Assembly (NCBI RefSeq): GCF_036711975.1
Contig: NC_091976.1
Span: 34,782,001 to 34,846,000, forward strand
Origin: Onthophagus taurus
Lineage: Eukaryota; Arthropoda; Insecta; Coleoptera; Scarabaeidae
Length of the DNA stretch: 64,000 bases
Reading direction: 5' to 3'
Part shown: positions 1 to 37,095 of the stretch, piece by piece
Numbering within the stretch: position 1 is the stretch's first letter
Layout: each line of letters begins with the position of its first letter
Position numbers and translations under genes: made by a program
The notes under the pieces: generated by a model
What the model was told of the DNA's origin: nothing
Databases searched by the model: none
What the model saw: the letters and a program-made list of their open reading frames with translations, nothing else

Positions 1-3000
1 ATTCCCGTTTTAGTCAAATTATCCATTAAATTAACCAATTTCATCGCTTCATATTCTTTCTAAAAATCAAATCCTACTTTATCGACTTTGTACGTTTGGT
101 TGCATATCATTTTAAATTTTAATAAACAATTATTTACCTGCTCATCAGTCATATTATCAGTAGCTTTTGGCGTATCAGGTTGATAACATCCCATAACCGG
201 ATTAATTTGTGATTTTAATTGATTGTATTCATCAGTATCGCTATCGGAGCTATCGGAGCTATAATTATTTGAATTTTCCGTGTTTCCACCCAACATAAGA
301 CCCCGTGAAGCGAACATTCCCGCTGCATTTCCATATCCGGTATATTTAATCATCCTATTTACGTTTTCTTTACATAAAATGAATAAGAAATCGGCCGATA
401 AATCTCTAACTTCTGTAATGGGAGATGTCAAAAGTCGACAAAAATATCCGCGATAAGATTCTTCCTCCTCCGGTCGTGACCTAACATCCTTTAACGGGGG
501 AAGTACTTGTGTTTTGAGATACTTTCTCATTCTGCGACAACTTCGTGCGCAATTTCTTAAAACGGTGATAACCGGAGATAACAACTCCAATTGTTTCGAA
601 ACGGTACAGTTTTTGGTGAATTTAGCTTTCAAACATTCTAACATTGTATAGATCGCCGTCATATCGTACCCCATATATTGTAACGTTTCATTTGTGGGGG
701 GTTCTGTGACGCATTCCAACATTAAATGGCCCAATTCGGTTTCGGGAACATTTATTAATAAATTTATTATGTGGTTATTTAATTCGTTGTTGTTATCGTC
801 CTTGTTTTCAAATTCCCAAAGGAGATGGTCACGTAACAAAATGACGAGATCTCGACTCAAATCAGATTCAATTTCCGTTTTGACAGTTAAATTAAATAAG
901 GTTTTTAAGAGTTCGCCAATCAATTCAACTTGCTTTAACTACAAAAATAAAAAAATTTAAAAGATAATTAGAGACGCGAGTGGATAAAGGTGTTATGTAA
1001 CAATTTTGAGAATTTTAGGATTTTTGGTCTAAAGATGTTTTGCAGATTAATTCTTACTTTTTTGCAAAGTACCGGTTGATAAAGGTGCTATGAGTTTCAC
1101 AATCTAAATTAAGTTAATGGATAAAGGTGCTATGTGACTTTAACACCTTTATCCATTTTGTTTCCTTCGGTAGTGCAGATCAAGTTACCGTGATTTGTTT
1201 GTATTTAACTAAATTTTGACAGGTGCTAAATCGTGTAAGTAAAAATAAATTCCACATGCTAATTTATGTTTCAAATGGCTGAATTACGTCCGGTTAATGG
1301 TGGTATGCGTTTTCCTCTTTTTGTATGGTTAAGTAACATGAATGTTGGGTTCATTTATCTTTAGATTCAGGTATGGGATTTGAGTTCTGTATTGGCCAAG
1401 ACGAATGTATAAGCACTGATTTAAATAAACATAATATTGCGGTACAAGAGAATAATTCAAGTGATTTGACAATGAAATTCAAAGGAAATGTATTGGCACA
1501 TATTGGCACACCTAAACACACAATGGGAGAAGATACCCCAAATAATTCAGATAGTATCTCGACAGAAAAAAATCAAAAACTAAAAAAGAAAATATTTGAA
1601 CCTTCAGAAAAGATTGCTAGGAAAAGGAAGAGGGATGCAAGTAAGTGGAAAAGGGAAACGGCAAGGATTGCAAGAGATCGAGGGGAAAAATATATTTCTC
1701 AAACGGGAAAAGAAATTGCCGCTAAGAGTCCAAATCTAAAATATGTACTGTGTACGGATCGTTGCAGATTAAATTGCGATGAGAAGTTTGAAGTCAACTC
1801 AAGAGAAAATATATTTAAAAGTTTCTACAAGTTAAATCAGAATTCCAAAAATATTTTACTTTTAAAAAGTATAAAAATTGGCCCAGTTCAGTGCCATAGA
1901 TCTTCAGCTAAAAATCCAAAACAGTTTTCATTTAAATATTTTATAACTTATAATGCAACACAAACGCAAGTTTGCAAACTTGCTTTTATGTCATTATATC
2001 AAATTGGTAGAAAAAAAGTTGCTGTTATTCAGAGAAAGCTGAAATCAGGTGAGGTAGCTCCAAGTCCAGACAGAAGAGGCTGCCATGATAAAAGGCCCCA
2101 TAAATTGCCAGCTGAAGTTGTTGAATCTATTGTTGACCACATAAAAAGATTTCCTGCCGAACAATCACATTATTCAAGGAATAAAAATATTAATAAGATG
2201 TATCTTTCTCCGCTGCTAAATATAGCTAAAATGTACAGGTTGTATATAAACGAATGTCGCACCAAAAAATGTCCAGAAGAGTACATAGTAAAATTATGTT
2301 CATATAGCAACATTTTTTCTACAAAATTTAATTTATCTTTTGGACAACCTAAGAGCGACACTTGCAGCACTTGCGACAGCGGTGAAAGCAATGAAGAACA
2401 TAAAGAGAGGTACAGAAAGGCGTTTGAAGAACAGAAAAAGGATAGGTTAAAAGCTAAAAGCAACAACGAAATTGGTTATCTCACCATGGATCTACAACAA
2501 ACCATGCCTTTGCCAAGAATAACCACATCTAAGGCTTTCTATCTGAGACAGATGTGGTTGTACAATTGAGTTGTCTGGTTTCAATATCCCCTAAATCCAT
2601 TTTCGGGCAAAAATGAGATATATACGCCATCTGTTAGAAAAAGTTGTTTTCTATAAAATACTCAATGATTTGTATTAAAAAACGCGCGAATCCCTTAAAA
2701 ATTCAAATCAAATAGACAGCCTTTAGATATTAAAGAGAGCTACTTTCGATTTATTTTTAATACTTCCTTCAACATCGGCTTTGGATCTCCTAGCACCGAT
2801 GTTTGCTCTAAGTGTCTTGAACTCCGGGAAAAAATTAAAAATGAAAAGGTTGCATCTATTAAAACAGTGCTAACTACAGAATACCGAATACATAAGCTCA
2901 GGGCCAAAGCATTTTTTGAACAGCTAAAAGACAAACGGGACGGCCTTCTGACAATTTCTTTTGATTGTCAGAAAAACTTGGTATTGCCCAAAATACCAGA

Positions 3001-6000
3001 TCAAAGTACCTATTATAGTAGACAACTGTACATTTACAACTTCACTACTGTAGTGGGGCACTCACATATTCCGTTAACAAAAGATAATGTTAAAATTTTC
3101 ACGTGGACTGAAGATGAACATGCCAAGGGCGCCAACGAAATTGCAAGCTGCGTCTTTTACACTTTAAACAATAGTAACTTAGAGGGAATAGATACACTTC
3201 GATTGGTCGCCGATGGATGCGGCGGCCAAAATAAAAATACCATTATGATATGTATGTTGTTCAAATGGCTAAGCAGTATAAGCAGTTCTATTAGAACAAT
3301 CGAGCTGGTATTCCCAGTGGTGGGGCACTCCTACATTCCACCTGACAGGGTTTTTGCTACTATCGAAAAAGAAATAAGAAAGAAAGAAGAAATTGTAATG
3401 CCAGAAGAATACATAAATATTTTTCAAGAACATGCTACTGTTTTTAAACTTGGAAAAGATGTTCCCGATAGTGATTGGAAAGGTGCTGGTCAAAAAATCC
3501 TTAAGCCAGTGTCTCAGTGGCATTTTAAATTTAACCAATGTAAGAGATATATTATACGACGTGGCAACAAAAACGCCATCACCATTCGAGGTGAGTTATC
3601 TTACCGTTCAGACACCGGAACATTCAAAGGAGTTTTTAGGAAAAACCAAACCGCCATGAATATCCAGCCAAAAGAAATTCCTACCGGAGTGAAACCAAAA
3701 GATCTGAAAATGAGAGATGTAAATAACTTGTTAAGCAAACATTATGGAAAGAACTGGAGAGCGGTAGAAAATTTGGCTTATTATAGAGATGTGTTGGGAA
3801 AATTTCAGGACAATAATATTCCTGGCGATTCTCGAGAAGACAGTGGGGACGAAGAGCCTAGTTTATGTGAATCAACCGAAAATATACCTGATGTTACAGT
3901 TTAAGAGTTTTTTAAGTACAGCTTTTAAATAACATATCTTTCAAAAAATAAAGTTTCCTGTTATTAGCTACAAAGAGATTTGATTCACTTTCAATTCATG
4001 CCTAATCCATTTTGTTCAGATTCAAATGAGCCTTAATCCACAGTTTGGTAGTAAACGCAACCAAACACCATTTTTAAATCCACTTTGTGATTTTTATATC
4101 TATTTCAAAAGACGTGGTTATAGAATTTTTGAAACTTCAGTAAGTCTTCTAATAACAAATAAATTATGTTTGAATTATTAACGCCAAAATCATCCCAAAA
4201 TACTTTTTTGCCGTTTTCTCAAAATCGAAAAATTTGGACTTAAGGGTATTTGAAACCAAACAACTCAATTTTGGTATACATTTCATATCAAAAGAAGAAC
4301 AACCTTATTTTTTTATGTGGACTGACGACGTTGCCAATAGAGGGAGCAGCGAAATTGCGAGCTGTTTGTATTATTTCGCCCAAATGATTAAAGAAAGTAA
4401 CCCTGAGATTAATCACCTAATAATTTGGTCAGATTCTTGTGCCGGCCAAAACAAAAATTTTAATATCATTGCTTTATATCAGCTCCTAATTTTGAAGGGC
4501 ATGTTTAGAAAAATTGATCATAAATTCCCAGAGGTTGGACATTCTTATTTGGACTGTGATAGAGATTTCGGAAGAATTGAAAAAACTTTAAAAAAATGTG
4601 AACGGGTTTTTGTACAGAGACATCATAAGAACTTCAAGCAAGAAAAATGCACATGTTATGAATATGGAAAACCATTTTAAAAAGTTTGATCAATTGCCTC
4701 TAAAACTCGGTTTATATAACAGAAAAAAAAATAAATCGGATAAAAAAATACATTTTAGAGATGGTATCAGGTGGATTAGGGTGGAAAAGTTTGGGGAGTA
4801 TTCATACAAGGAATGTCTGGATGAAAATACCGAATTTGAAATTGTCAATTGCTAAAAAAATAAAAAGACTACAGAAATATGTGTTTATCCAGACAGAGTT
4901 TCGGAAAAATATGGCAATATTTCTAAAGAAAAGTTACTGAATTTGAAACAACAGTTGCAATTTGTACATGAAGAATACAAATATTATTACGAAAATATTT
5001 TACGCGATAATAAAATACTTTAGATGACATCTTTCATTCGTAATAAATTTTAAATTTGTCTCTTATTTAGTGGATGTACATATTCTTTCTTGTAATTCCT
5101 TAACTTATCTTCATTTTGTAAAGTTATTATACTGTAATATATTTTGTTGTTGAAATAAATTGAATAATATGAAAAAAGAAATAAATAGTAAAAACTTTAA
5201 ACGAGAATAACTCAAAATTGTTCCCGTGTTACATAGCACCTTCATCCACTCGCGTCTTCAATTATTTTTGTTAAATATAATCACCTTAAATTCTTCATTA
5301 TTTCGAAAATCTTCAAATGCTTTCCCTAAAACTCCCATAAGTTCAACAATTCCATTAAATTTCTTATTAATTTTGACTCGACTATCACTTTGTAACGCCG
5401 TTAAAATAAATAAAATCTTCATATCTAAGATTTTAACATCGATCGGAATCTCATTCTCGCTTTAAAAGAATATATTCATTTAACAACTCTTTTAATATCA
5501 AAATACTCACGGATAATGTTTAACCCGTTTAAAAATACCCTCCAAAACACCATGTTTTAAACAAACCTCTCTAGAAATATTAGCATTAAACAAAATATTA
5601 CAACAAGCTTTTAGCCCTTCGATGAGCTTATCGTTATAAACAACAGTATTATTATCTCCTCCCAACCCCCCCATTGCTAGTATTAACACCAAAATGTTCG
5701 TTGAAACAAGTTCATTTAAACATTTTTTCTCACGACTTAATAATCGGATTATTATCAAACAAAATTGGTGTAAATCCCCTTGTTCTTTATCTTTTAAAAT
5801 GTGATACAGTGCTTTCCATAATGATACTCTCGTGTTGTCTTCATCTAAAGCTGGGAAATTAAATTGATCTGAAAACTGGTTTTAAAACAAATCAATTATT
5901 AGCATTATTATTTTTCAAATTTAAACCTTTTCTATTAGATCTTTAAGAATTTCTTTTTTAGCTGCGTTATCATCGCTATTTAATACTTCAATTTGTGATT

Positions 6001-6004
6001 CCAT
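1..6004 (-). CDS. ric8a: Ric-8 (synembryn): G-alpha chaperone and guanine exchange factor, 3' end outside window
   Basis: Ric-8 proteins fold and activate heterotrimeric G-protein alpha subunits in the cytosol. Exons read on the minus strand: 6004-5927 (start MESQIEVLN), 5875-5511, 5459-5285, 938-138 and 59-1 (continues past the window edge). All junctions are GT/AG and keep frame, giving about 492 residues here; the family is usually 530-570. Family hallmarks seen: the LKQVELIGELL helix, PPLKDVRSRPEE, the KYTGYGNAAG motif followed by ASRGLM, then an acidic serine-rich stretch and the QKEYEAMKLVN tail. A 78-bp intron (137-60) removes an apparent stop at 60-62, so the long exon does not end there. 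The 4.3 kb intron between exons 3 and 4 is almost entirely a transposon. The start codon faces FUT8 head-to-head. Confidence 0.93.
970..1160. repeat. Subterminal iterons of element A
   Basis: The word GATAAAGGTG followed by YTATG occurs at about 983, 1078 and 1120 on the plus strand, and an inverted GATAAAGGTGTTA at about 1141-1156. The right terminus carries one more inverted copy at 5231-5246, with C in place of the A of AAAGG. The copies at 1120 and 1141 face each other and would form a hairpin. Repeats of this kind near transposon ends are commonly transposase binding sites; that role is inferred here. Confidence 0.7.
2568..4266 (+). mobile_element. Element B: smaller relative nested inside element A
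   Basis: Inverted ends GAGTTGTCTGGTTTCAA (left, 2568) and the complement of GAGTTGTTTGGTTTCAA (right, ending 4266), extending imperfectly to TCCA. AATT copies at 2564-2567 and 4267-4270 flank it, the same target as element A. Removing B together with one AATT rejoins element A's reading frame exactly (WLYN then FGIH), so the boundaries are firm. The words TAATCCA and AAATCCA recur near both ends, with sequence unlike element A's iterons. It retains only the C-terminal part of a transposase, so it was probably non-autonomous. Confidence 0.88.
2712..3904 (+). pseudogene. Element B transposase-like protein, C-terminal part only
   Basis: An open frame runs from about 2712 (QPLDIKESYFRF) to the stop at 3904. 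It aligns by eye with element A: STDVCSKC matches SDTCSTCD, SFDCQKNLVLPK matches MDLQQTMPLP, then WTEDEHAKGANEIASC, ADGCGGQNKN and GHSYIPPDRVFATIEK. The N-terminal cysteine cluster and the region preceding QPLDIK are missing. The frame is otherwise unbroken over about 395 codons and ends in an acidic tail. The divergence from A and C shows it is a separate family rather than a recent copy. It may have been mobilised by a full-length relative elsewhere. Confidence 0.7.
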
Positions 6005-6779
6005 ATTTTAAGAAATTTTAACAATCTTTATAATACGCCCTAAAACAAGTTTTGAGGTTAACCATTGATTTTAGTTTGGTGTAGAATGAAGGTTAATAAT
6101 CGATTTAGTAAAAAGAGATGTACATATTTGTAAATTGATGTAGAAAGTGATGCAACATATTATTTATTTTTTTTTAAATTTAATTTTAGATTAATCTGAG
6201 TTGATTCTCAAAAGAGAAAGTTATTTATAAAAAAAGGTTTTTATGGTTCATGTAATTGCGGAAAATAATTATACAAAGAGGAGGAAGTTTAAAGATAATG
6301 TAGGTCGGTTGTATGGGTCATAAATGCAGTTGGTACCAACACACGTTTATCCAATTCAATCTAATCATTCAATAAAAGTAATCAAATTATTTTATTTTAA
6401 CGAATCGATAAGACTGCAAAGAAAGAAGAATAACTTATAATTAAAGTGACAAAAATAATTGAGTCGCCTCGGTTGGTATTATTGCGATTTAACTTCACGT
6501 TGATTATTTTTACTTCTTCCTGTCAAACCTGTCAAAATGTTAAATTGTGTTAAATCGGATAGTTAACGAGTTCCTCAAACATATTTTAAAAATATGATTG
6601 TGGTGACATGACATGAATTATTTACGGTACTGTTCATAGTGCTAAAAATAAATTAACTATACACATACCACATGTACAAATGTATTCCATATGCATAAGT
6701 TTATAACCTAAAAAATCCAGTTGTTAAGTAATAAGTAGTAACGTAAAAATAAACGTATAAAGTATAATAAATCAAAAAA
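6005..6779. promoter_or_regulatory. Shared 5' region of ric-8 and FUT8
   Basis: The two start codons face each other 775 bp apart. The stretch is AT-rich, shows no reading frame, and holds no convincing TATA box that I can assign to either gene. Bidirectional promoter use is inferred from geometry only. Confidence 0.45.
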
Positions 6780-8822
6780 ATGAGTGCAATATTCAGACAC
6801 GTAAACGCGATAGTTTTAATATTCTTTGGTATTTGGATTGTGATCCTTTTATTTATTGCATTTCCGATGATCTCTACACACGTATCTCCTGCAAATACGG
6901 AAACTGTAGATCGACTTGCGAAGGCTTTAGCTGATTTAGAGATACTCCGTAAACAAAATAACGAGTTACAAGAGCTTTTTAGAGATATTAAATTAGGGTA
7001 ATTATTCAATGCACTCTCATTTATCGAGTTTTACAACCTCAACATCTTTTGTAGTGATTTTAAAAGTGAAGAAAAAGAAGCAATAGAAAACTTTCAAATG
7101 CGTCTGACGAAAGTGGAACACCCAAAATCGAAAAGACTTCAAGACGTCGGGTTTGTAAGCCAAAAAGAGGAACCAAACTCTCAATACGAAATATTGAGGA
7201 GACGAATTGCCACAAATACAAAGGAGTTATTTTATTATGTTCGGGGTGAGATGCATAATCTGAAACAGCAAGTTCAACAGTTATCGGTGAACGCTGAGAG
7301 TTCTGTGGATGAGTTTTTGAAGGTGACCAAAGAGCACGAACGATCTTTATTGCATGATATCGCGCAATTGGGGGAGATTGATGGTTTCGCTACTTGGAGG
7401 GAATTAGAAGCTACCGAATTAAGTAATTTGGTACAGAAACGATTGAAGTATTTACAAAATCCCGCTGATTGTGAAAGTGCCAAAAAATTAGTTTGCAACT
7501 TAAATAAAGTAATAAAAATAATTTTAAACAATAAATTTTTAATTTGTAATTATTTTAAGGGTTGTGGGTTTGGGTGTCAACTTCATCATGTAGTATACTG
7601 CTTATTGGTGGCTTATGGAACCGAACGTACTTTAATTTTAAAATCGAAAGGTTGGAAATATAATAAAGGGGGATGGGAGGAAAAGTTTAAACCAATAAGT
7701 GATACTTGTACAGATACGTTTGGTGAAAACGGCTCAACTTGGCCTGGTAATGATTATCATGAATAATAATAAAAAATAATTTAAAAATTGATTATTTTAG
7801 GAACCCCCGAAACTCAAGTTTTAACTATATCCGTTATCGATTCGATTTCACCTCGACCTCCGTATCTTCCACCGGCAATCCCCGAGGATTTAGCCCCGCG
7901 ATTAATACGATTGCACGGCGACCCCATCGTTTGGTGGATCGGACAATTTTTAAAATATTTAATGAAACCACAAGAAAAAACTTCGGCTTTAATGCAAGAT
8001 ACTATGTATAATATTGGATTTAAAAGACCTATTGTTGGGTAAAAATATTAATTTTAAAATTACAAAAAAGTGATGCAAACAAATTTTTTAGTGTTCATAT
8101 TAGAAGAACGGATAAAGTAGGCACAGAAGCCTCTTTTCATTCTGTTAATGAATACATGGCTGTTGTTGAAGATTATTACGATCAATTAGAATTAAAAGGA
8201 GCAGTTGAAAAACGTAGGATATATCTCGCAACGGATGACCCGAAAGTTTTAGCAGAAGCGAAAAAAAATTATCCCTCCTACGAGATTTTGGGTGACGCTT
8301 CTATATCAAAAACGGCATCGATTTCAACAAGATACTCAGAACAATCTTTAAACGGGATCATTTTAGACATTCATATGCTGTCAATGAGCGATTATTTAGT
8401 TTGCACGTTTTCATCTCAGGTTATTTAAACAACAAATTTAACAAAAATGTTTAACCACAACATTTATTAATAATTTTTAGGTTTGTAGAGTTGCGTATGA
8501 AATAATGCAAAATTATTTTCCGGATGCGTCCGATAAGTTTAAATCCTTGGACGATATTTATTATTTCGGGGGTCAGAACCAACACAATCGCGTGGCTTTG
8601 TTGCCACACACCGCGCAATCCCAAGGCGAGATTAACTTGAACGTTAACGATTTGGTTGGAGTTGCTGGAAATCATTGGAATGGTTATAGTAAAGGGAAAA
8701 ATTTACGGACGAAACAAACGGGGTTATATCCAAGCTTTAAAGTACAGGATAAAGTGGAAACAGTGAAGTTTCCAACGTATGCCAAAGCCACTAATAAAAA
8801 TAACGATAATGATAATGTGTAA
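6780..8822 (+). CDS. FUT8: Alpha-1,6-fucosyltransferase (FUT8)
   Basis: Golgi type II enzyme that adds core fucose in alpha-1,6 linkage to the innermost GlcNAc of N-glycans. Exons: 6780-6997, 7067-7508, 7560-7746, 7801-8038, 8092-8419, 8481-8822; every junction is GT-AG and in frame, giving 584 aa (vertebrate FUT8 is 575). In order: a short cytosolic tail, a signal anchor at about residues 10-32, a coiled-coil stem, [15 protein letters not shown], the ISDTCTD cysteine region, the [16 protein letters not shown] donor-binding motif with the catalytic arginines, [24 protein letters not shown], and a C-terminal SH3 domain ([13 protein letters not shown] through TGLYPSFKV). An AATAAA overlaps the stop region. 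Nothing is missing; this gene looks intact. Confidence 0.97.
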
Positions 8823-8999
8823 TAAACAAATTATTTAATAATTTTATTTCAACAGAAAAGATATTGTTGTTTTAAACCACGGAAATAAAACTTTGCATTA
8901 CGTAGTTTTATATTAAAATTTTATGTTTGTCTAGGTTTTATGTTCCTATATTTTATAATTTTTAAATCAAATTAAACTATGCTTCATATGTAAATATGA

Positions 9000-9195
9000 A
9001 GAGTAGTGCTTTTCTGTTGTTCTGCTGGGATTCCTGTGGATTTTGCCAGTTCTTATAAGTGGCTGGGTCCAAAAGGCTCGTGATCTTGTGCAATCTTGTT
9101 GTATTCATTTCTGTCCATAACTAAGGTCGCATTCCCCTTGTGCGCTGGTAGAACGATAATGTTATCGTTCGTAGCTGCTTTAAGCACGTTATCTT
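9000..9195 (-). pseudogene. Fragment of Penelope-like element N-terminal region
   Basis: On the minus strand the frame reads NDNIIVLPAHKGNATLVMD followed by NEYNKIAQDHEPFGP, then a stop. This resembles the LPADKGNATVVMD block that precedes the reverse transcriptase in Penelope-like elements. It is short and broken. It corresponds to the part absent from the larger element at 60721-62330, though the two need not be from the same family. Confidence 0.6.
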
Positions 9196-10286
9196 AAAAG
9201 TTAATTTACATATTTCAATTCAAGTGGTACCTAGGTATTAAATTAAATTTTTTTTATCAAAGTGAAGTTTATTAATTAATCAAAAGATGGAAATTACATT
9301 TAAAGTGATTTTATTAATATATTGTAATAATTTTAACATTCTCTTAGTTCACCGAGAGAACATAACCTAGAATTTGTGACAGAGAGATTTTCTGTTGGTG
9401 AAAATCTTATCTTAAACCGTTTTGTTTACTTTCAAATGTATCAATTATTGTAGTACAGCTCCTAAAGCACATTTTTCATCCATCGTTTGAGGTTTTAACG
9501 TTATTTTGAGGAAGAAATCCTTGATTTAAATTTGAATTTTTCCAACTTTACTCATTGTTGAAATTTGGCGTGTACTCCAATGTATGTCTAAAAACAAGAA
9601 AAGACAACGTTGAATACGAAGTTTTATTACGTTTCATAAACGAATAAGGGAGAAATCAGCGAAAAAAGAATTAAATTTTGAAGGTTAATTCCGAGAAAAA
9701 TCAAGAGATGACGCTAGTTTCGAAGAAAGAATTTTGAATTTTGAAAAGGGCGCGAAGCTAAGGACCAATCAGAAACGAGGAAAAAAACGGTTGGAGTGCC
9801 GGGGTATATAAGGAGATCGCGAACAGGGAGTGAGCGAGCCGTCGTCGGACCAGCGTCGAATGCACGCCGTCAGATAGAAGAATTTTTGAAAAGATAACCT
9901 CAAAAATCTAAGATAATTTTTAAAAAAAAGTCAAACCAACTTACAATATTAAAATAAAAAGAGAATCATCCTACAACCTATTCCAAGAACTACTGATACT
10001 TCTTCGAGATCATCCAAGACCCTATTTCCGAAGAACAAACAGTTCAATTTCCCGTAAGAAGAATCCTGTAGACAATCCAGAAAATTAGTTAGTGCCCCGA
10101 ACACAAGAGACAATCCATAATCCAGATACCACATTGAACTCCAATCCATTATTTTTCACAGTGAGTCGGATGATAATTTTATTTTATTATTTAACATAAC
10201 CTACAAAAAGAAAAATCAAAGAATCAAACTCAAAGAACAACTCACAAGAGTTTTCCATTTGTTATTTTCAAAGAACGGTTCTAACT
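9196..10286. other. Gene-free stretch with a TATA/CCAAT promoter-like core
   Basis: No coding region recognised. The first half is AT-rich and featureless. Around 9755-9870 the composition changes: CCAATCAG, a TATATAAGG box, then GC-richer sequence. It could be a solo LTR of a retrotransposon or an orphan promoter; I found no matching second LTR in the window. Confidence 0.4.
9805..9813 (+). promoter_or_regulatory. TATA box (TATATAAGG) with upstream CCAAT
   Basis: A canonical TATA element sits about 50 bases downstream of CCAATCAG, and a GC-richer leader follows about 25-30 bases on. No coding exon is visible before Nup37 at 11032, and Nup37 would not be expected to use a start this far away. 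Confidence 0.4.
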
Positions 10287-10296
10287 AGTTTTATCC

Positions 10297-10511
10297 CAAG
10301 GTTTATATATAAGAGGTTGTCTAGGTTCGTACGCAATCATACTGCGCATTACGTCACATGTGGAAAATAATACCGCCAAGCAGTACCGGTTGCGTGCGCA
10401 ATCTGTGATCGTTTACGTCACGAAACACTGCTACTCTTGCCCCTTGCCCACAAACTTAAATCAAAGTATTGCAGCATAGGAACTTAGACAACCTTTAATA
10501 TATAAATCTTG
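10297..10511. mobile_element. Short inverted-repeat MITE, hAT-like
   Basis: Inverted ends CCAAGGTTTATATATAAG and the complement of CCAAGATTTATATATTAA, continuing inward through AGGTTGTCTAGGTTC (right copy has A for one G). A 9-base direct repeat, GTTTTATCC, brackets it at 10288-10296 and 10512-10520, compatible with an 8-bp target duplication plus a shared end base. About 215 bp, no coding capacity. Confidence 0.7.
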
Positions 10512-11031
10512 GTTTTATCCTACTCTCTCTCTCTCAAATAATAGACTGGTTCTCTCTAATATCGATATTTCAGTCGATAACCGCAGTTATCTATTTTATT
10601 TAAAAATTTATCTCTCGTAAATAAGCATTGTTATTAAAGTTAATTGAGGAAAACCATTTTTTTTGTTACTCATAAAACGAGTTAATTTGATTTTGTGTTA
10701 ATTAAATGAATTTTCTGTCGAACCTGATTAATATTCTTTTGAACCTGAACTTGCCCGAAAGTTTTTAATAAGAGTCTCTTAAAATTAAAGAAACCCAAAT
10801 TTATAGATTAATAACTTGTGTATAAAACATCACACAAGTAAAACAGCACAATATTTTCATTAAATTTTAAAATTTATATAAAAAACCGGATATTTAACAT
10901 AAATCTTTTTGACTTTTCATATTATTTTGATTCGTTTTATTATGCTTAGGGGCGCCCTCTTTACACAAAAATTATAACTATTTTTATTTAGAGGTTATGT
11001 TAGTTGTTTAAAAGTTTCATTTTTCGTTAAA

Positions 11032-12050
11032 ATGGATTTCGAAGCGATTCACAAGCAATTTACCGAACCGGTTTATTCGATTGATTTACAAGAAAATAGC
11101 CCTGTTTTAGCTGTTCATTATTCCACTTATGAATGGTCTCAAGATATTATTTTGTTAGCTTTTCCCAAGAAAATAATCGTTGGTCAAATCCTCTTTGAGG
11201 TAATTATAAAGATATTTTATAGAAAGAAAACGTGTTATAAAACTAAATATTTTAGGATAAATTAGAACTAAGTATTCTGGCTGAAATCCAACATCCTCTT
11301 CGATGCACAAATTTATATCTTTCTTCTGAAACTGTGTTGAATATAATTCCGATAAACGTTCAATTTTGTACGGCGGCTAATGATTTTAAAATACGCATTT
11401 TTAAGACTAACTTATCAGATGAAAATTCTTGTATGGAATTAACTGGACATGAAAGTTATATTAACGATCTAAATTATGATCCAACAAACAGTTATATTGC
11501 GTCTGTTAGCGATGATCACACAGTTAAAGTTTGGTCGACGGAGGATAATAAGTTAACAGCCTTTTTTAACTTAACATCCCCAGGAGTATCCTGTTGCTGG
11601 CACAGAGAAGATCCTTTAAAATTATTGGTTGCTGAAAAAATCGGAGTAATTCGGTTTTACAACGTTTCAGCGATTAAACCAATTTTATCGTGTAGTTACA
11701 CAAAATCATTATCAGCGGCTCATTGGTCCCCAAATGATTCTCAGTTACTTGCATCATTACATATGGGAGAACTTTTATTGTGGGATGCAACACGTTTGAG
11801 TCGCCCAATTCAAACTAAATTGATTTATACAGAATCTGGTGGTGATTTAAAATTTAATATGTCCGGGGAATTTTTAGCGATTGTGAATAAACTGGAAAAC
11901 TCTATCAAAGTATTTCACGTTCAAACACAACAGGAACGGTTAAACGCAACTCTTTCATCACCAACAAACATTACATGGCACTTTAGATATCCCTTAATAT
12001 GTGTGGGAGATGATCGTAAATTGAATTTTTGGAAAATTCCTGGAAAATAA
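11032..12050 (+). CDS. Nup37: Nucleoporin Nup37, WD40 protein of the Y complex
   Basis: Component of the outer-ring (Nup107-160, Y) complex of the nuclear pore. Two exons, 11032-11199 and 11256-12050, joined in frame (FE|DKLELS), give 320 aa against about 326 in human. WD40 signatures: VQFCTAANDFKIRIFKTNL, LTGHESYINDLNYDPTN, IASVSDDHTVKVWS, SPGVSCCWHRED, LLVAEKIGVIRFYN, SAAHWSPND and a terminal ICVGDDRKLNFWK. The order and spacing match Nup37 rather than generic WD40 proteins. The start is the only ATG before the motif YSIDLQ, placed after a short AT-rich leader. Intact. Confidence 0.93.
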
Positions 12051-12970
12051 TTGTCAATTTAAAAAAACATAACCTCAAAAGATGGAAATTAAATTTAACA
12101 CGATTTCATCAATAAATAAATGTAAATATTCATTAAATCTTAAAAAATTAGGTAAAAATATGTATTTAATGCGTAAACATTAATTTTTTGATTCTAATTT
12201 TCCGATTTTTATATTGAGGTTATGTTCCTGGAAAATGATAAATAAATCAATCAATATAATCTGTTTTTTATTTAAATTAATTGTCAAAGCGTCGTCAAGT
12301 TGGTATTGAAAGTAAAAACGCATGTCGTGACTTTTACTTTAATTGTGTGCCACCACTGTCTATCAAATTTGTTAAGATTGATTAAAAAACAATTTTCATA
12401 TAATTTTTTTGTTGCTAAATCTACCATAAAAATGTTAAGAAAGGGTGGAACGGGATGTGAACTGTCTAAACGCGAAAAAACTCTATAATTAGGTATTGTG
12501 AAGAAGTACAGACGGAGACACCAAATAAGAATTTAAAATATATATGTGATAAAGCTTCACGTATTTTTGATGTATGTGTATTGCACTTGAGTTTTAAAAT
12601 TAAATTTATATTCAACATAATTGTATTAGGTTCACAGCACGACGGTTTTTAAAATTATTCAAACCTACAAAAAATATCAAACTGTAAAAAAACCAAAAAC
12701 ACAAGGGCGTTGTAAAATGAACTACAAAACGGATAATAATTTATATTTTATTAAAGAAGAGTTAGGAAGACAAATGTAGCCCGAATGTAAAATCCGGGCT
12801 AAGTGCAAAAAATGAAGTTTTGAGATAAATGATAAAAACTTCCTAGGAACATATTCTGCTTAAATATTTAACTTAACTTCACCTGTCATCAGTAAAGGGC
12901 TTTACATACCTATGAAATTTGAACTAAGAATACCAACATGCCTATTTTATATGTAAACTTTTATTTAAGA
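12051..12970. other. Gene-free AT-rich stretch
   Basis: Contains the Nup37 3' flank with several AATAAA-like words. A small hairpin (AGCCCG ... CGGGCT) lies at about 12779-12801. No credible coding region or repeat was found. Confidence 0.4.
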
Positions 12971-12974
12971 AATT

Positions 12975-15354
12975 ATGAAAAGAGCTATGTGCCAATACTT
13001 TTTTGGTAAAAAGGGGGCTAAGATACCAGTTTAAAGTTCGGTATAATGATAACTGAACTGACTGAACTGTATGAATATAACACTTTATTTCATTGTTTGA
13101 ATGGTGTTTTGGTGAAGGGGGGTTAAATTTTTGGAGTAGGTGGATGGGGGAAGGGTCTACGGGTCAATTTTGTGCAGAACAGCAAAGAACAGGAAAATAA
13201 GAGTTTTTAGGCTAGATAATAATAATAATAAATCAATGTTTTATAAGTTTAGTATTATATTGAAGTAATACGTACAAGTTATCTTAATTAATGCAGTAAG
13301 AGTTAAGAACAAGATACTGTAGAAAAAATCAAAAATATAAACAAACAAACATAAAAAATAACCGAATTAAGACCAACTAAAAATTGTACTGTTTGAAGTG
13401 TCTTTTATGCCGTTAACTCCCTATAAAACTGTTTAGTTTCTTCTTTAAGGTATGGTATCATTTTCTTCAAATCTGCTTTCTTTTCATTGTTCAGTCGCGT
13501 TGCCATCTCCAGCTGAGGTAGATTCATACCTACAATATGGTTCTTTGTGATATTCTTTTTGAACACATTCGTAATCTTCCATGGTTCAAGATCACTAAAG
13601 GTTTTTTTTGTACATACTCTGCCGGGGTTGTCTTTTGATACTTTAATCCAAACTACTTTTGATATTTCTAACTGCGTAGTGTTAAGATAAAGTTGGGCTA
13701 GCTTGGCAAAGTTGAAAAAGTCCTCTTCCTGCATCATGGTTGTTTCAAACGAATTCTTATCACATGCGTTGCAAATAACTCTGCAAAGGTCCATTGGCAC
13801 TTCACACTTGGCTTTCTTTCTTTTTTTCTCTATGATTGCAAAATCACGGTCACAACTAAGATATGAGTGGCCTGACACGACAAACTTATGCTGGATCTCG
13901 TCAGCATAGCCATTACATACTAGATAACAACTACTTACTACATAAAAACACAATCATTTTATTTTTATTTTGTTCGCAGCAGTTGTCACTCCAAATTACA
14001 AACTGTTTCTTGTGAGTAATATTACTTTTTATACCTTTGAGGACGCAACTTGCGATTTCATTTCCTCCACGATCACTGATACCCTCGTGCCATAAAAACA
14101 TTAAGCCTTTATTATTATCAGCCTTGTGTATACATAAGTTGTAGCACGAAAGTTGACGCAAATAGTACATTTGACAATGCGTTAACGCAGGTAACGACAG
14201 AACTTTTTCTAAGTCTATTGCCATTGTACACATATTACTCGTAGGAGTTTGAGACTCCTGATGGTCATTTTTCATAACTGTGCGTGCGCTTTCCGCTTTA
14301 CGATGATGCAGCGAGGCGCGATTTTTTACTCTGTTTACGGAGTCATTCATTATTTTACTGTGAATTACTGTCTTACATGTATCTTGTCTGGGGCGATGAA
14401 ACCTAAGTTTTTGGATTTTTTGTCGAACTATTTTTTTGAAGTAACCGTACTTAACTGTAGTCGTCGGGTTACGATCCACGAAAGACGCATGCAGCTTGTT
14501 GTAATTTAAATCTGGGCTCAAATACAAATTTGAACTTTTAGCCCTAGTATAACGGCTCTCTTCTTTGGGCAAAGCAGCAATGTGCACAATAATGAGCCTT
14601 TCATCTTCTGCTGAATACTTTCTCTCTCTAATTTTGTTTCCCCTCCGCTCAATGTAAGTAACGTCCCCACGCTTTATCGCCTTAACGAGAGTTTCGACCC
14701 TACGCTTTGTAATACCAAAAACATCGAGAAACGTTTTCTTGCAAACTTGCTTACAAACACCTTTGCCATCTGGGATAGTAAAAAAGACAGATGCCTGGCG
14801 TCTACTTGCTGTGGGATCCACATATGAACCATGGCGCCTGCGCTTAACACCGAAAACAGATATCAGCCCCATTAAGTAGGAATTTTGTTTAACATTATCT
14901 CCCAGTTGATAAAACTTATTGAACAGACTGAGTTTTTGATCATGCCCCATATTTTTGCAGTCATAACGGCATTGGCATTGTACCTGAAAATCAAACAAGC
15001 TTTAGATAACTTTCCAAATATGTGCAAACTAACAAACTTACCTCTTCGCCTGGTGGTTGTTTTTCAGATAATCTTCCACAGGATCTTTGATTCTTATTAA
15101 ACTGTGCTAGCCTCCCTTCACATGTCTTCCTACGTTTTTTAGTTAAATCAGTTGTTTCCATATTTATAAAACCCACAAAATAACACTAATCACAAGCACT
15201 GATCACCAAACATAACCTCTAACAACTCAGAGAGTAACAAGACACATAGAACGTTTTTTACCAAACACCTGATGCGTCATAGCACACCACGCATCATAGC
15301 TGATTTTTTAAAAACTAGTTCCACAACAAACTAATGATAGCCCACTTTATACGG
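12975..15354 (-). mobile_element. Element C: third DUF7869-like transposon, nearly complete
   Basis: The right end runs to 15354 followed by AATT (15355-15358). The likely left end follows AATT at 12971-12974. The proposed termini (TATGAAAAGAGCTATG and TATAAAGTGGGCTATC read inward) match only in part, 11 of 16, so the left boundary is tentative. GCTATG words recur near both ends (about 12985 and 15260-15295), echoing the GCTATG of element A's iterons. Carries a two-exon transposase gene. Confidence 0.6.
13405..15161 (-). pseudogene. Element C transposase-like protein, full-length but with one frame break
   Basis: Exon 1 is 15161-15042 (METTDLTKKRRK to PPGEE, 40 codons); a 58-bp GT-AG intron (15041-14984) follows; exon 2 starts VQCQCRYDC. 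Order of motifs matches element A: cysteine cluster CQCRYDCKNMGHDQK, SVFFTI region, FGITKRRVETLVKAIKRGD (HTH-like), ESRYTRAKSSNLYLSP, RQDTCK, MAIDLEKVLSLPA, WHEGISDRGGNEIASC, WSDNCCEQNKN, GHSYLSCDRDFAIIEK, and a basic C-terminus ending KQFYRELTA. A frame change at about 13931-13955 interrupts it between MIVFL and YLVCNGY; it is too short for an intron, so I read it as a small indel. The other codons are open, making this the most complete member here. Confidence 0.72.
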
Positions 15355-15399
15355 AATTGCATTTGGTACATTGCACGTATTTCACAACCTAACGCGAAA

Positions 15400-17260
15400 A
15401 TGAATTATTTGGCACTTAGCCTGGATTTTACATTCAGTCTACAAATACAAAAATTGCATGAAAAGAAACAGTATTTTAATCTTAATGATTTACTTAATTT
15501 TGCAAGAAATGAATGTGATTTTACTAATGGTAGATCAAAATTACATAAAATTATAAAATCTATGGAATATAGATATAAAAAGATTAGCAATAGAAAAGTG
15601 TTAATTGAACAACCACATATAGTTTCAAAAAGAATTACATTTTTAAAGACATACTTGCAATACCTAGAATCCGGAGAGTATACTTTTGTTTTTCTTGACG
15701 AAACTTGGATTTACGAAAATGGCACCCAAGTTTATCAATGGGTAAATGAAAATGAAAGATTCGGTATTCCGCAAAGAGCAGAAGGCGAAGGAAAAAGATT
15801 TACAATCTTGCACGCAGGCACTTCGTCAGGGTTTTTGCCAAATTGCGATCTCTTGCTCAGTGACAACACGGAGCACAGAGATTATCATAAAAATATGACG
15901 TCAATTATTTTTATGGAATGGGTGCAAAATCAATTACTTCCAGCATTAAATAATTTGGGTGCGAAGTGTGCGGTAGTAATGGATAATGCTCCATATCACT
16001 CAACACAAATCGAGAAAGCTCCAAGTTTCTGCACAAAAAAAATGATATGAAAAAATGATTAACTGAACATAATATACAGTTTGAACCAACCTTAAATAAA
16101 AAATCGTTATGGGAAATAATCCGTTATTACAAGCCTCAAATTGAAAAATCCTTTGAAATTGATAAATTAATAAGAGACCATGGCCATACTGTTCTTCGCC
16201 TTCCTCCATACAATTGCCAATATAATCCCATTGAACTATGTTGGGCGTTCTTAAAAACTTATTACAATAAACATGTTCAGTCCAGCTCGGAGAAAAAGAT
16301 CTGTCGTGTCAAGGAGACTTGGCAAAAAGCTCTTGGTCATTAGTAATGACCATGCCTACTTCTATTCATCACTGCCTCTCCCTGATCTCCATATTCTCCT
16401 ATACCACCTCCCCCCTTGTGTATATGATTACTAGGGCACGGAACTTTTGTAACAAAACGATACGATTTCCCCCCTCCACTCGTTCTCAGCAGAAAATTTC
16501 ATACAAAAGTTGTTCTAAATTAAATTCTAAAACGATTTTCTCAATAAAAAATATATATAATATATATATAAAATTTTTTTTGAGATTATGTTCTTAATTA
16601 TTGATCAAATCAAAAATTTTTATTAACAATATTTGTTTAGAATTACTTCAGGCTTAACAGTGTTTGTTAATACAATTTTTTGCTAACTTGAAATTTTAAT
16701 TTCCCTCTGAATAGTATGCTATCAAAATTAATTATCTCAACAATTATTGTTTTTATTAAAAAATGTTTTAAATAAAATTTGTTTCAATTTCGATTTTGAA
16801 TCAATTATCTTAATAAAAAATTTTTACATCTCTATTAATTAACCATCTAAGTGTAATTATGTATAAAAATTTAAAAATTATTATTTTGAGGTTATCTCCT
16901 TAATTATTGATTAAATCAAAAAAAGTTGTTGACAAAGTTTGTTTAGAATTGTTTCAGGAACAATTTTTAGTGACACAATTTTTTTCTTACTTGAAATTTT
17001 AATTTCCCACTGAACAGTATGGTATTCTTTTAATCAAGATTTTCTGAGAACGAGTGGAGGGGGGAAATCGTTTTGTTACAAAAGTTCCGTGCCCTGGTCA
17101 TTACACTCCGGAGATGTGGGCAAATAGTGTTCGCCACTGTGAAGAACTAATTAAAAAAGATTGGACAACATTAATGGGAAATTCATTAATAACTGATTTA
17201 CCTCCTGTCATCATCCAACTAGCGGAAGACTCAGATTCTTCCAGTAATTCTGATTTTTAA
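15400..17260 (+). pseudogene. Sailor-like (DD82E) IS630-Tc1-mariner transposase, broken
   Basis: Catalytic blocks in order: VFLDETWIYENG (first D), VVMDNAPYHS (second D), LPPYNCQYNPIELCWAFLK (E). Repairing one base in the A-run near 16040 leaves 82 residues between second D and E, the spacing I associate with the Sailor group. A TGA (near 16052) lies just beyond the frameshift. After ETWQKALGH at about 16342 the gene is split by a 753-bp insertion and resumes at 17096 with GHYTPEMWANSVRHC, ending in an acidic serine tail at 17260. The N-terminal DNA-binding part was not identified; element C ends immediately upstream, so the front may be lost. Confidence 0.72.
16343..17095. mobile_element. 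Palindromic hAT-like MITE inside the Sailor-like gene
   Basis: Direct copies of GGTCATTA lie at 16335-16342 and 17096-17103. Inverted arms of about 65 bases (AGGGCACGGAACTTTTGTAA and on through the C-rich CCCCCCTCCACTCG) start at 16430 and end at 17095. Ends of the C/TAGGG form with an 8-bp duplication suit hAT elements. Between 16343 and 16429 there is an extra stretch beginning with TAATGACC, an inverted copy of the target, that the simple model does not explain. The interior has two diverged direct copies about 306 bp apart (near 16582 and 16888). Confidence 0.65.
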
Positions 17261-18084
17261 ACAATATTCAAATTTTAATTATAGCACTTAATGATGTTAT
17301 CTTAATATATTGCGCACGAGTTTTAATTTCAAAACGTAGATATTAGCCAAGTGACGAGAGATTAGTGGCTTCGTCTTTAAAGTGACAATCGGTGACAACT
17401 TCGTTTAGAATATACACAACCTTACTTATTATTTAGTGGAAAATATTATAAAGCGTGGTCATAGAACATGGTATCTAGGGTGGTACAGACCGTTTTTTTA
17501 TAAAAATTTGGCAATGACAATTGATTTAAATAAAAAACAAATTTTAGAATAAATACATTTATTTGTACTTAGCTGCGATAAATTGTATACATTTTTACAA
17601 AATCTCCAATTATTTTATTTTTAATCCTTAAGCCTAAAATATTCCTTTACAAGTTTGTTGTAAAAACACTTAAAAAATGGAAAACACAAAACCAAGCCGA
17701 AGAGCGTGTTCTTTTTGTGTATATAGTAAAATTCGGAATATAATTAAACATCAAAAGATGAAAGCTAGCCAAAGATTTTCGAAAAATTGTATAATACGCT
17801 GTATATCGATATTGTGTCCAACCACTTTTTCGTTTAAATATTAACATCTTTGTATTTAAAAAAATCAGACCCAAAAAATCTTAAATTAATCTAAGGTAAT
17901 TAAAGAAAATTTGTGTGTTGTGGAAAATTAAAAAACTAATCAAAAAAAATTTTAACGTATCACAGACAAACAGATGCCCCAAGGACAAAAAGCTACCGTA
18001 TTTTGTGCACTTTTTACCTTTAAAATTGTTTAAGGGAAATAAATTTTGGACCACGGCATCTTTCTGTTTAAACAAAAAATTTCA
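17261..18084. other. Spacer between Sailor remnant and TMEM272-like gene
   Basis: AT-rich. Probably holds the 3' end of the Sailor-like element and the 3' untranslated region of the minus-strand gene that follows. No coding region supported. Confidence 0.4.
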
Positions 18085-28680: not shown

Positions 28681-29484
28681 AATACATTGCGAATGATGTA
28701 TAAAAACCCTAAATATACATTAGATTACTTATTATATAGTAGACACTTTTCGATTTTGATTACTTGGAAGTTTTTACTTATTCAAATCTCTTATTTGCAA
28801 CATTATCTTGTTTTGCTAAGTAGCTTAGTGCTAGTTAAATAAACTTTATTTAATTCGCTAAAAAGTTCTTTATGTTTAGAGGTTTATATGTTTCTTTCTA
28901 ACCATGTATGTTGTTTCACCTCGAAATAAAATAAAAGGAGAGATTGTGATAAATGATTGTAGACGTTAACTTAGATAAAATAAATAGTCATCATCAGTTA
29001 GAATTTAGGAAACGTTCAAAGATGGGGAAAAAATATTTCATAACTATTTTTTATTATTTATTTTTCGAGATTATTGCGTGTATGTTTGGCGGGCAATTTA
29101 AGCTCGTTCACTGCCACGCCTCTTCAGTGTTGCGTTACACACTCGGTGGTGGTAGACGGTGAAAGCGAGCCACTAGACGACGATGACGACGACACGAGCA
29201 CCAGAACAGCAACAGCAGCACGATAGCGAGGCCTGCGGTTTTCGATACCGCAACGCTGAAATGTCGGTTAGACACCTCAAATGTGTTCTGCTAAAGGCAG
29301 CCATCCTCCTCCTTCTCCTCTCTTAATACACATAGTGTACCTACCAACCAACCAACCAACTACAAGCCCGGTAATTTTGAATTAATCGCTCAAAGAGAAC
29401 GTTGAACATATGTTTAAGCGCTGTTACATTCCGTAAATAATGTTTTATTAATCAATCTATAATAAGAATGATTATAATTGTATG
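28681..29484. other. Gene-free spacer with a GC-richer island
   Basis: 28681-29080 is AT-rich. 29090-29350 is GC-rich, with GACGAC/CAGCAG runs and ACCAACC repeats, in the style of a 5' untranslated exon or promoter. No coding exon can be attached to it. Confidence 0.35.
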
Positions 29485-30131
29485 TACAGGGTGTCCCAAT
29501 TTCGATGTCCGCATAGGCTATCTCCGAAACTAAAAGAGATAGAAAAAAAGTAGCTTACATGTCATGATCCCGTTTTTCGAGAAAATGCTAATGCCGAAAA
29601 CTCCGAACAGCTATCGTCTTTTGTTTTCACCCTATCGGCAAAAACTGAAAATTTTGCAAAAACGACAATCGCGAATATCTCACTTATTATCAAAGATGGA
29701 GTATTATAAATAAAACATTATATGGGCACCTTTTTACGAAGAATTCAGTGGCGTAGGTAGAATTTTTTTCCCATCTTTTATTTTCGAGATTTTAGACGTA
29801 ACTTTATTTTTTTAAATGGAAACCATAGTTGGCTATGACTTAAAATAATTTGTTATTTTCTTCTGATAACAAATATATATAGTTTGTGGGGTATATTTCT
29901 TATAGTTATTGAATAATTAACAAAAATTCATTTTGTTCCATCTAAATCTAATGTATGTATTTAAAAGTTAATGTTGCTATGGTGATAACCATACATACTA
30001 TGATGGAATATAATGTATCAATTTGTTTGTTCTTTCTAAAACTATTGTATGTATTTAAAACTTAATGTTGTTATGGTAATAACCATACCATGAGGGAAAG
30101 GATTGTTTCCAATTATTGGCAAAGTTTGTAG

Positions 30132-30456
30132 CAAGGACAGTAGAATCTAACAGGACTGCTACATCCATTGTATTTTTGTAGTCGACTACGGGTTGGTTGC
30201 CCGCACTCTACGTCACACTATTTGCCACGCCTGATAACTGTCTATGTTTTTAGAGGTTATATGATAGACATTAATACGTCTAAAAACATAAAACTTCAAA
30301 ACTAATATGAATACGTCTAGGATATAACCTCTAAAAACACACAGCAAACGCATAGACTATAACAACAGCTAGGCGTGGAAAATGGTGTGACGTAGTTTGC
30401 TGGTAGGCTGTCACAACAATGGATGTAGCAGTCCTGTTAGATTCTACTGTCCTTGA
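30132..30456. mobile_element. 325-bp palindromic MITE with 8-bp duplication
   Basis: Ends CAAGGACAGTAGAATCTAAC and its complement, with arms continuing through AGGACTGCTACATCCATTGT. GTTTGTAG is duplicated at 30124-30131 and 30457-30464, suggesting a hAT-type insertion. Its inner part (30235-30350) is a second inverted structure around AGAGGTTATAT and ATATAACCTCT. It lies inside the transposase remnant. Confidence 0.82.
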
Positions 30457-31113
30457 GTTTGTAGTAGTATTTAAAAATTCACTAACAACTCTGGCATTAT
30501 GTGCTGGTGCTTCGTCATATTGAAAATATATCATTTGAGACATATTTAGTGGCAAATTGTCGTCCAAAGGCTCAATGTGCTGCCTTAATATATTGAGATA
30601 TTTCCCTGAGTTTAAGTTTTTATGGTAGACACTATATGCCAAAATTCTATTATCTAAAAGGGCACACCATACATTGAACCCCAATCTTCTTTGAACACTC
30701 AAAGACTTCATCGGTCCAGATTACATTTTGAACAAACAGCAGATTATTTAATTTTTTAAATATCATCTACAAAATTCTAATCTTCGATTGACATCTCCGG
30801 CACGTAAATAATGAGTTAGCCCCGCTTTGTATGGTTTATACTTATTTTTCTTTCATATTCGGGAGCAGCGTCTTTTGGGTCAGACGTCTTGTTGCAATTT
30901 CTCTTGCAGGTCATTTTGGTATGTTTTTGTATGTGGTTTGGGGAAGGACCAAATATCCATTAAATTTTCTGCTGACCGGCTGAAGGTTCGTACGTGCGGT
31001 TGTCTTCTTTCTGGATATCTTGTGAAATAAAATTCCGCGGCTAACGTCGCATTGTTATCTGATAACATGTAGCATTCCATCATGTTACATTTTTCATAAT
31101 TTTCGAAATTCAT
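30331..31113 (-). pseudogene. Tc3/mariner-like transposase remnant (DUF4817-type N-terminus)
   Basis: The N-terminal segment (31113-30880) reads YEKCNMMECYMLSDNNATLA and YPERRQPHVRTFSRSAENL, typical of the DUF4817 helix-turn-helix of insect transposases. The C-terminal segment (30711-30457) reads GFNVWCALLDNRILAYSVY and MIYFQYDEAPAHNARVVSEFLN, containing the second catalytic D. Past the inserted MITE, the frame continues FANNWKQSF at about 30123-30080 before entering the arm, so the last catalytic part is gone. Confidence 0.75.
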
Positions 31114-31767
31114 TGTAAAGTTTTATTCAGTTTTGTTATACTTTGACACTTAACACGCTGGTGCATAATTCCAGCACATAATGCCAGAGTTGATATCGAA
31201 TTTTTAAATACAAACTTTGGCAATTATTTGATACATTATGTTCCATCATAGTATGTATGGTTATCACCATAGCAACATTAACTTTTAAATACATACATTA
31301 GTTTTAGACAGAACAAAATGAATTTTTGTTAGTTATTCAATAACCATAAGAAATATACCCTACAAACTATATATATTTGTTATCAGAAGAAAATAACAAA
31401 TTATTTTAAGTCATAGCCAACTATGGTTTCCATTTAAAAAAATAAAGTTACGTCTAAAATCTCGAAAATAAAAGATGGGAAAAAAATTCTACCTACGCCA
31501 CTGAATTCTTCGTAAAAAGTAGCCCATATAATGTTTTATTTATAATACTCCTACTTTTTTCATAATAAGTGAGATATTTGCGAATGTCGTTTTCGCAAAA
31601 TTTTCAGTTTTTGCCGATAGGGCGAAAACAAAAGACGATAGCTGTTCGGAGTTTTCGACATTAACATTTTCTCAAAAAACGGGATCATGACATGTAAGCT
31701 ACTTTTTTTCTATCTCTTTTAGTTTCGGAGATAGCCTATGCGGACATCGAAATTGGGACACCCTGTA

Positions 31768-34313: not shown

Positions 34314-34315
34314 TA

Positions 34316-34912
34316 CAGGGTGTCCAAATTTCGATGGGTTTGCAGGGTATCTCAGTTATTATGAAAGATAGAAAGCCGCGAACCTGAGCTACTTTTTTGT
34401 GAAACTTACAATGGCGCAAACCAAATTTTCATAGCTCTCGTCGTTTTTGATATACAGGGAGTGTTTAAAAATTTACGATTTTCAGACACCTCCTGTATCT
34501 CGGCTAGCCGTAAACGTAAAAACGGGTTCTAATACATTTTTTCACGTAGAATCCAATGGTGCACGTAGAATTTTTCTAGTCGTCACGGTTTTTGAGTTAT
34601 AAAGAGTTAAGTATTTTAGAAGTTGAGTATTCAGTATTTGAGTTGTGTTTATAACTCAAAAACCGTAATGACTAGAAATATTCTACGTGTACCATTGGAT
34701 TCCACATGAAAAAATCTATTAGAACCCGTTTTTACTTTTTTATTAAGTTTCCGGATAGCCGAGATACAGGAGGAGTTTGAAAATCATAAATTTCAAACAC
34801 TATGGGCTATGAAAATTTGGTTTGCGCCATTGTAAGTTTGACAAAAAAGTAGCTCAGGTTCGCGAAAGCCGCAACTTTCTATCTTTCATAATAACTGAGA
34901 TACCCTGCATAC
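34316..34912. mobile_element. Palindromic MITE, copy 1 (right end lost)
   Basis: Starts CAGGGTGTCCAAATTTCGAT after TA at 34314-34315 and folds on itself about 34625. The return arm matches as far as GAGATACCCTGCAT, then stops about 30 bases before the expected terminus. Same family as 36349-36996. Confidence 0.82.
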
Positions 34913-35117
34913 ACTGATAGTGTATGGTGTTAGTTGATGCGTTACGCAACTGGTTGCAGAAATTCAAAATTGTTTGAAATTAGTTGCGCAACGCCATTGG
35001 TTGCTCAACCAATTGCATTGTGTATGAGGTTTGTGCAACATATTCTGCAATAACGATGGTTTCTCTTCACGTGTGTTAGTAGGTGTTCATATTGCTTTTC
35101 TCAATATTGTGTTTTTG

Positions 35118-35660
35118 TACCGGGAATTTCATATAACTCGCAATATATGAATACAGTACCCATAGTTACGAAACTACTGTGCACTTGTACTGTCCGTCAT
35201 AAAATATAACACAGTTTAATAGTACAGGTACTGGATAGTTTTGCAAAGGAAAAGTTTTGCTTGGAAAAAAGTGACGTCCTTATGATAATCCTGAGTTTTC
35301 GACCGTCTTAAGAGATGCACGGCTAAACCGAATGTTTCTGGTTCTAGGTCTAGTGACCTAGAACCAGAAACAGTTGTGGGTACTTTTCATTCAATAAAAA
35401 TATAGCACAATCTAACGCTGAATAACAATTAAAACTTTAACTAACACTAAACCTTGATCCAGAAACATTCGGATATAGCCGAACGTCTCTCAAGCCGGCT
35501 AAACTCGAATGATTCTAGTCCTAGGTCTTAGGTTAGCTCTAGTGATAGTGCTAGTGCAAAATTAAAACTAACACTAGACCTAGAACTAGAAAGTTTCTGG
35601 TTTAGCCATGCGTCTTCAGACTACTAGTTTTAATTCAATAAAAATATACAACCGAACATA
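35118..35660. repeat. Hairpin repeat family, copy with 5' head
   Basis: The head (35118-35300: ACCGGGAATTTCATATAACT, then GGAAAAGTTTTGCTTGG) is shared with 45011-45195. The tail is a series of fold-back units made of TTCTAGGTCTAGTG, TAACACTAGACCTAGAAC and GGCTAAA-type words, e.g. GTTTCTGGTTCTAGGTCTAG facing CTAGAACCAGAAAC at 35338-35370. Confidence 0.7.
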
Positions 35661-35663
35661 GAA

Positions 35664-36092: not shown

Positions 36093-36346
36093 TGCTAACT
36101 AGCGCTACCTAGCACTGTTACTGCAAGTAACAGAAGATCATCTTTAACCACTCTCATCCATACTCTGCTTCCTTTTTCTTTTTCTAACACCATCTTTCAG
36201 ATGGCATGTTTCCATGCACACACAACACAAGCAAGTTTGAAGTTTGTATAAAATTGTGTATAGTGTATGGGTTGGGTTTTTTGCACAATAACCTGTTGTG
36301 CAACGTTAGTTTGCGGAATTTGTTTGCAAGTGTATGGGGCCTACTG
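36093..36346. other. Short unique stretch
   Basis: No gene. Rich in TTGCGCAAC-like and GTGTATGG words, also seen at 34925-35050, hinting at remnants of another small element. Confidence 0.3.
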
Positions 36347-36348
36347 TA

Positions 36349-36996: not shown

Positions 36997-37095
36997 TACA
37001 CCTTAACAATTTTCGCAACCTTCTTTAATTAATTCGTTTAATGGATTAACCGGCTAAATATTTTGGAAAAATTTGGACATTGACGTCTTTAGATA

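Follow-up and report, generated by a model that had tools for sequence, protein, structure and literature searches.

Sola1, Sola2 and Sola3 are said to have been defined by Bao and colleagues in 2009 through DDD transposases and 4-bp target site duplications (TSDs). We examined a 64,000-nucleotide stretch of the Onthophagus taurus genome (the window, C11:34782001-34846000) which holds three elements, A, B and C, and searched the 290.8-Mb assembly of 33 contigs for their relatives. For Sola2 elements, AT-rich 4-bp TSDs of the form AWWT (W being A or T) have been described, with ATAT, AAAT and ATTT listed (PMC3627910). Sola transposases are placed among RNase H-like proteins (PMC3985635), a Repbase list includes Sola1-3, Sola2 is named in an ostracod abstract and in a survey of insect miniature inverted-repeat transposable elements and counted in a bivalve survey, and Sola is named in a tardigrade survey. 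With a probability of roughly 85%, we assign A, B and C to the Sola2 group of cut-and-paste DNA transposons, each standing for a family of its own. Their transposase frames are matched by the profile of the Pfam domain DUF7869 (PF25273), for which Pfam gives no function. Copies of A, B, C and the other elements compared are labelled L0xx, each a locus fetched from the same genome, with L061 being the window's own A.

Element B is nested in the transposase gene of element A. The following features were assigned to A.

966..969, unstranded: left target duplication of A, AATT (ends of copies)
970..5259, plus strand: element A, likely Sola2-type, interrupted by B, 2587 bp once B and one AATT are subtracted (inverted repeat, other copies)
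1373..2566, plus strand: N-terminal part of the A transposase upstream of B, ending with the first-Asp motif DLQQ (open reading frame, alignment A2)
4271..4680, plus strand: catalytic part of the A transposase after B (DUF7869, E 4.5e-15, 56.2 bits, on 4234-4677); frame broken near its end
5260..5263, unstranded: right target duplication of A, AATT (ends of copies)

The arms of the inverted ends of A, counted with flanks, lie at 960-1002 and 5227-5269 (43 nt, 88%). The left end of the window's A reads AGAGACGCGAG, and copies L063 and L064 start with GAAGACGCGAG. Both ends are present in L063, with AATT on either side, while L062 is without a left match and has AATT at its right end. B, with its duplicated AATT, splits the transposase frame of A; when the two sides are fused so that one AATT remains, the frame reads open across the site. 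All three other copies of A examined (L062, L063 and L064) are uninterrupted at the B site and carry a single AATT there. A sequence-only reading of the window had described A and B as bracketed by AATT with inverted ends, and this was seen on both sides of each element. The features of B are as follows.

2564..2567, unstranded: left target duplication of B, AATT (copies, empty sites in A)
2568..4266, plus strand: element B, a deletion derivative with ends GAGTTGT...ACAACTC, 1699 bp, nested in A (inverted repeat, copies)
2699..3901, plus strand: 401-codon open frame of B, catalytic (DUF7869) part (open reading frame, Pfam)
4267..4270, unstranded: right target duplication of B, AATT (copies, empty sites in A)

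The inverted ends of B lie at 2564-2599 and 4235-4270 (36 nt, 83%, TSD included). About 30 near-identical copies, B among them, are without the N-terminal half; the first 170 bases of B were found at 37 places in the genome, and its protein matched at least 123 places, many of which are other families with 32-59% identity. Thirty loci including the window's own were fetched, and 28 of them have both ends. Two of the loci, L024 and L027, have a common deletion and may not represent independent insertions. The copies differ from the majority sequence by only 0.36-1.47% (27 copies, the longer L017 left out), and the family can therefore be regarded as a young burst. L017, the sole longer form among the loci fetched, is 2474 bp in length and encodes a first exon and an N-terminal part upstream of the region it has in common with B; it carries two stops and a frameshift, the latter judged by eye. 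In place of this N-terminal part, B has a short stretch that cannot be aligned to L017. B is an internal-deletion derivative without exon 1 and the N-terminal domain.

We also considered whether B could be an independent short autonomous element that uses the 401-codon protein. A frame of at least 398 codons is open in 9 of the 28 copies with both ends, which speaks for this reading. On the other hand, the first ATG in the frame occurs only after the second catalytic Asp, and the longer form with the exon and N-terminal part exists in L017. Substitutions among the B copies are spread over the three codon positions (62, 75 and 88, about 10.5 thousand sites each, with 81 in 13.5 thousand non-coding sites) and give no sign of selection after insertion. 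An autonomous B is accordingly very improbable, and we treat B as a deletion derivative.

Element C lies on the minus strand at some distance from A and B.

12772..12775, unstranded: left target duplication of C, AAAT (copies, empty sites)
12776..15442, minus strand: element C, ends GTAG...CTAC, 2667 bp (inverted repeat, copies, empty sites)
13405..13953, minus strand: C-terminal frame of the C transposase with GHSYLSCDRDFAIIEK, frameshifted relative to the main frame (open reading frame, Pfam)
13931..14998, minus strand: main frame of the C transposase, with the cysteines, a helix-turn-helix-like part, D-L-E, W..NEIASC and D-N-C-C-E-Q-N-K-N (open reading frame)
14984..15041, minus strand: probable intron with GT-AG borders (read by eye)
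15042..15161, minus strand: probable first coding exon, METTDLTKKRR... (by eye)
15443..15446, unstranded: right target duplication of C, AAAT (copies, empty sites)

The inverted repeat of C, counted with flanks, occupies 12775-12810 and 15408-15443 (36 nt, 89%). Both ends are present in eight of nine loci assessed, a count that leaves out L041, which coincides with L040, and L039/L042, a single place without the right end; the ninth, L034, is without a left match. C is inserted in a Tc1-like element that was listed at 40 places with 99-100% identity. Three Tc1-like copies were examined at the insertion site; L073 and L075 have an uninterrupted target with one AAAT, and L074 is 2 bp shorter there. 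The sequence-only reading had placed the ends of C at 12975 and 15354, with AATT at the right end and probably at the left. These ends are supported neither by other C copies nor by an empty site and were rejected; since the copies and the Tc1-like empty sites place the ends at 12776 and 15442, with AAAT as the TSD, the AATT pair is a coincidence. The window copy of C carries a frameshift near 13.94 kb which breaks the transposase. C copies differ by 0.53-1.37% from the majority; the substitutions number 29, 41 and 36 at the three codon positions, with about 4 thousand sites per position, and 93 in 8.7 thousand other sites. As separate observations, the Tc1-like copy (12254-17547) gave a weak DDE_3 match below cut-off, and is interrupted not only by C but also by an insert of about 752 bp (16343-17094) with the 9-bp flanking repeat TGGTCATTA.

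The many long open frames of this kind in the genome might suggest domesticated host genes rather than transposases. Taking into account that A, B and C show near-identical dispersed copies with terminal inverted repeats (TIRs), TSDs and empty sites, we find this scarcely credible, and the frames are treated below as those of transposases.

We then compared the target duplications. Perfect 4-bp TSDs were present in 26 of the 28 B copies with both ends and in all eight such C copies. Under an assumed A+T content of 66%, two random 4-mers would match in about 0.6% of cases. The C duplications are all AWWT (AATT five, ATAT two and ATTT one, the last being the window copy, AAAT on the plus strand), as are 18 of the 26 in B (AATT five, AAAT five, ATAT four and ATTT four). 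The first base was A in 26 of 26 B duplications and the last was T in 25 of 26, and the flanks lean more weakly to A and T. TTAA, the target of groups such as piggyBac, Kolobok and Sola3, was found in none of the 26 perfect B or eight perfect C duplications. The sequence-only reading had proposed a DNA transposon group defined by inverted ends and a fixed 4-bp target. The TIRs and the 4-bp duplications are indeed present, but a fixed AATT was rejected, as it accounts for only five of 26 perfect duplications in B and five of eight in C. The target is A-W-W-T-like.

The proteins of the three elements are related. In addition to the match in A, DUF7869 was recognized in the B frame (E 7.9e-9, 35.8 bits) and in the C-terminal frame of C (E 1.8e-6, 28.1 bits), above the curated cut-off of 26 bits. 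The main frame of C alone scored 15.7 bits, under the cut-off because of the frameshift. The shared order of blocks expected of all three does not extend to B, whose frame is without the N-terminal cysteine and helix-turn-helix part. Open transposase frames in the long forms comprise roughly 490-830 codons in this genome.

The predicted structure of a C-family protein (L033, whose residue numbering is used here) displays an RNase H fold, in agreement with the DDE/D catalytic fold that had been suggested from the conserved acids. In the model, strand 1 carries D288, D364 follows strand 4, and the next helix holds D406 and E413, with a spacing of 41 from the second to the third Asp. D288, D364 and D406 are likely to constitute the catalytic triad, with D406 as the putative third residue. 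All 50 PDB structural matches listed for the model were retroviral integrases or transposases, the sole fold comparison being a VIA run over Foldseek's 1000 highest chains. The DUF7869 match in L033 starts at residue 326, which corresponds to profile position 26. By extrapolation the profile begins after the first catalytic Asp, and the catalytic domain therefore exceeds the DUF. DUF7869 appears to make up the greater part of a transposase domain with an RNase H fold. The catalytic core of mariner transposases (Mos1, SETMAR) and of retroviral integrases has the same fold, but these proteins gave no sequence match in PDB searches, and the mariner target is TA as opposed to the 4-bp AWWT-like target here. 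The sequence-only PDB search gave no match for B and two weak ones for alignment A3 (E 0.3 and 3.3), and nothing convincing was found in PHROGs (three proteins) or NCBIfam (four proteins). In single-protein scans, which detect close relatives only, the B protein had no match in viral contigs and the L057 protein had two pattern matches there, none confirmed; L033 gave 15 pattern matches in a bacterial and archaeal collection, none confirmed.

With respect to the known groups, A, B and C share with Sola2 an AWWT TSD (all of C, most of B), TIRs and a transposase of several hundred residues. Sola2 transposases reportedly carry a DDD triad; here D288, D364 and D406 are conserved in the alignment and E413 nearly as well. 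The naming of the group had been left open, and its features match Sola2, a group already named. Membership is likely because the AWWT duplications agree and because Sola transposases have been placed among RNase H-like proteins. The Sola2 examples described in PMC3627910 are amoebozoan and carry Fanzor1 proteins, and the likeness described here is one of features. It could be argued that DUF7869 elements form a separate superfamily of DNA transposons, distinct from Sola2, with 4-bp AWWT targets that are alike by chance. Pfam lists the domain as of unknown function, and the word DUF7869 occurs in no paper of the literature library searched. The TSD pattern nevertheless equals that printed for Sola2, and the placement of Sola transposases in the RNase H-like superfamily (PMC3985635) fits the fold found, so that we regard a separate superfamily as unlikely. 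A large DUF7869 superfamily with A-W-W-T targets and Sola2 as no more than a small branch seems similarly doubtful; if true, genes annotated only as DUF7869 would mostly be transposases of an unnamed group.

Several points weigh against assigning A, B and C to Sola2 transposons. The proposed link between DUF7869 and Sola2 draws on the pattern of duplications, the predicted fold and earlier descriptions of the group. Eight of the 26 perfect B duplications are not AWWT (ACTT three, ATGT two, AAGT, AGAT and AAAA one each), and L017 (AAAT and AAAG) and L027 have both B ends without a matching duplication. The A copy L064 has AATT at the left and GTTT at the right, its alignment ending 15 bases before the right end. 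The model reached a predicted template modelling score of only 0.58, making domain placement uncertain, and the divergent copy L067 has His at the first catalytic Asp and copy L069 has Lys at E413.

Further DUF7869 families are present in this genome. At least 150 places scored over the cut-off, with 150 of 536 candidates scored and one element possibly giving more than one place; the profile found none in 14 control genomes. All ten divergent frames tested were above the cut-off (lowest, 27.1 bits). By copy comparison, the ends of the L049 family lie behind AATT, with GAAGAGTGTAAG, at three loci (L044, L049 and L053). In the L043 family AATT occurs with GAGGACCTTCCGG, at both ends in L043 and at the right end in L046, and the left end of copy L048 lies behind ACTT. 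The left ends of the L060 family lie behind ATAT, AATT, AATT and ATTT at four loci, where copy comparison did not find right ends, and it gave no settled ends for the L050 family. The frames with an altered conserved acid are long and intact (L067:107-2017 and L069:229-1977), that of L069 occurring at three places with equal score; they could be dead or repressor-like copies.

From these features we infer transposase activity and the following cleavage chemistry. The N-terminal cysteine and helix-turn-helix-like region of the long forms would probably bind the inverted ends. The RNase H-fold catalytic domain, composed of the first strand and Pfam DUF7869, would excise the element at the inverted ends, which start with G, and insert it with a 4-base stagger into an A-W-W-T-like target, leading to the 4-bp duplication. 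B was presumably amplified in trans.

Other features were noted in the window. Fragments resembling a Penelope-like retroelement, with a YVDD reverse transcriptase motif and a GIY-YIG-like stretch were recognized by eye at 60870-62251 (minus strand). Nested long inverted repeats at 34312-37000 (425 nt, 95%; 171 nt, 94%; 118 nt, 94%) suggest a foldback-type element, and those at 29482-31770 (338 nt, 96%; 226 nt, 94%; about 1.2-1.8 kb apart) are probably another long-TIR DNA transposon. Two frames, also found by eye, are probable pieces of host genes: the one at 60-923 on the minus strand is ataxin-10-like, and the one at 11334-12050 is of WD40 type (Nup37-like).

The elements are ordinary in kind, most likely DNA transposons of a known type. 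New in detail are a likely function for DUF7869, the corrected ends of C, the finding of B as a nested deletion derivative, and the abundance of such elements in this genome. For these families the analysis supplies clear ends, target sites and naturally empty sites, and in the B family the deletion derivative far outnumbers its longer relative. A Pfam domain of unknown function gains a likely role in a transposase, and genes annotated with DUF7869 should therefore be screened as transposons.
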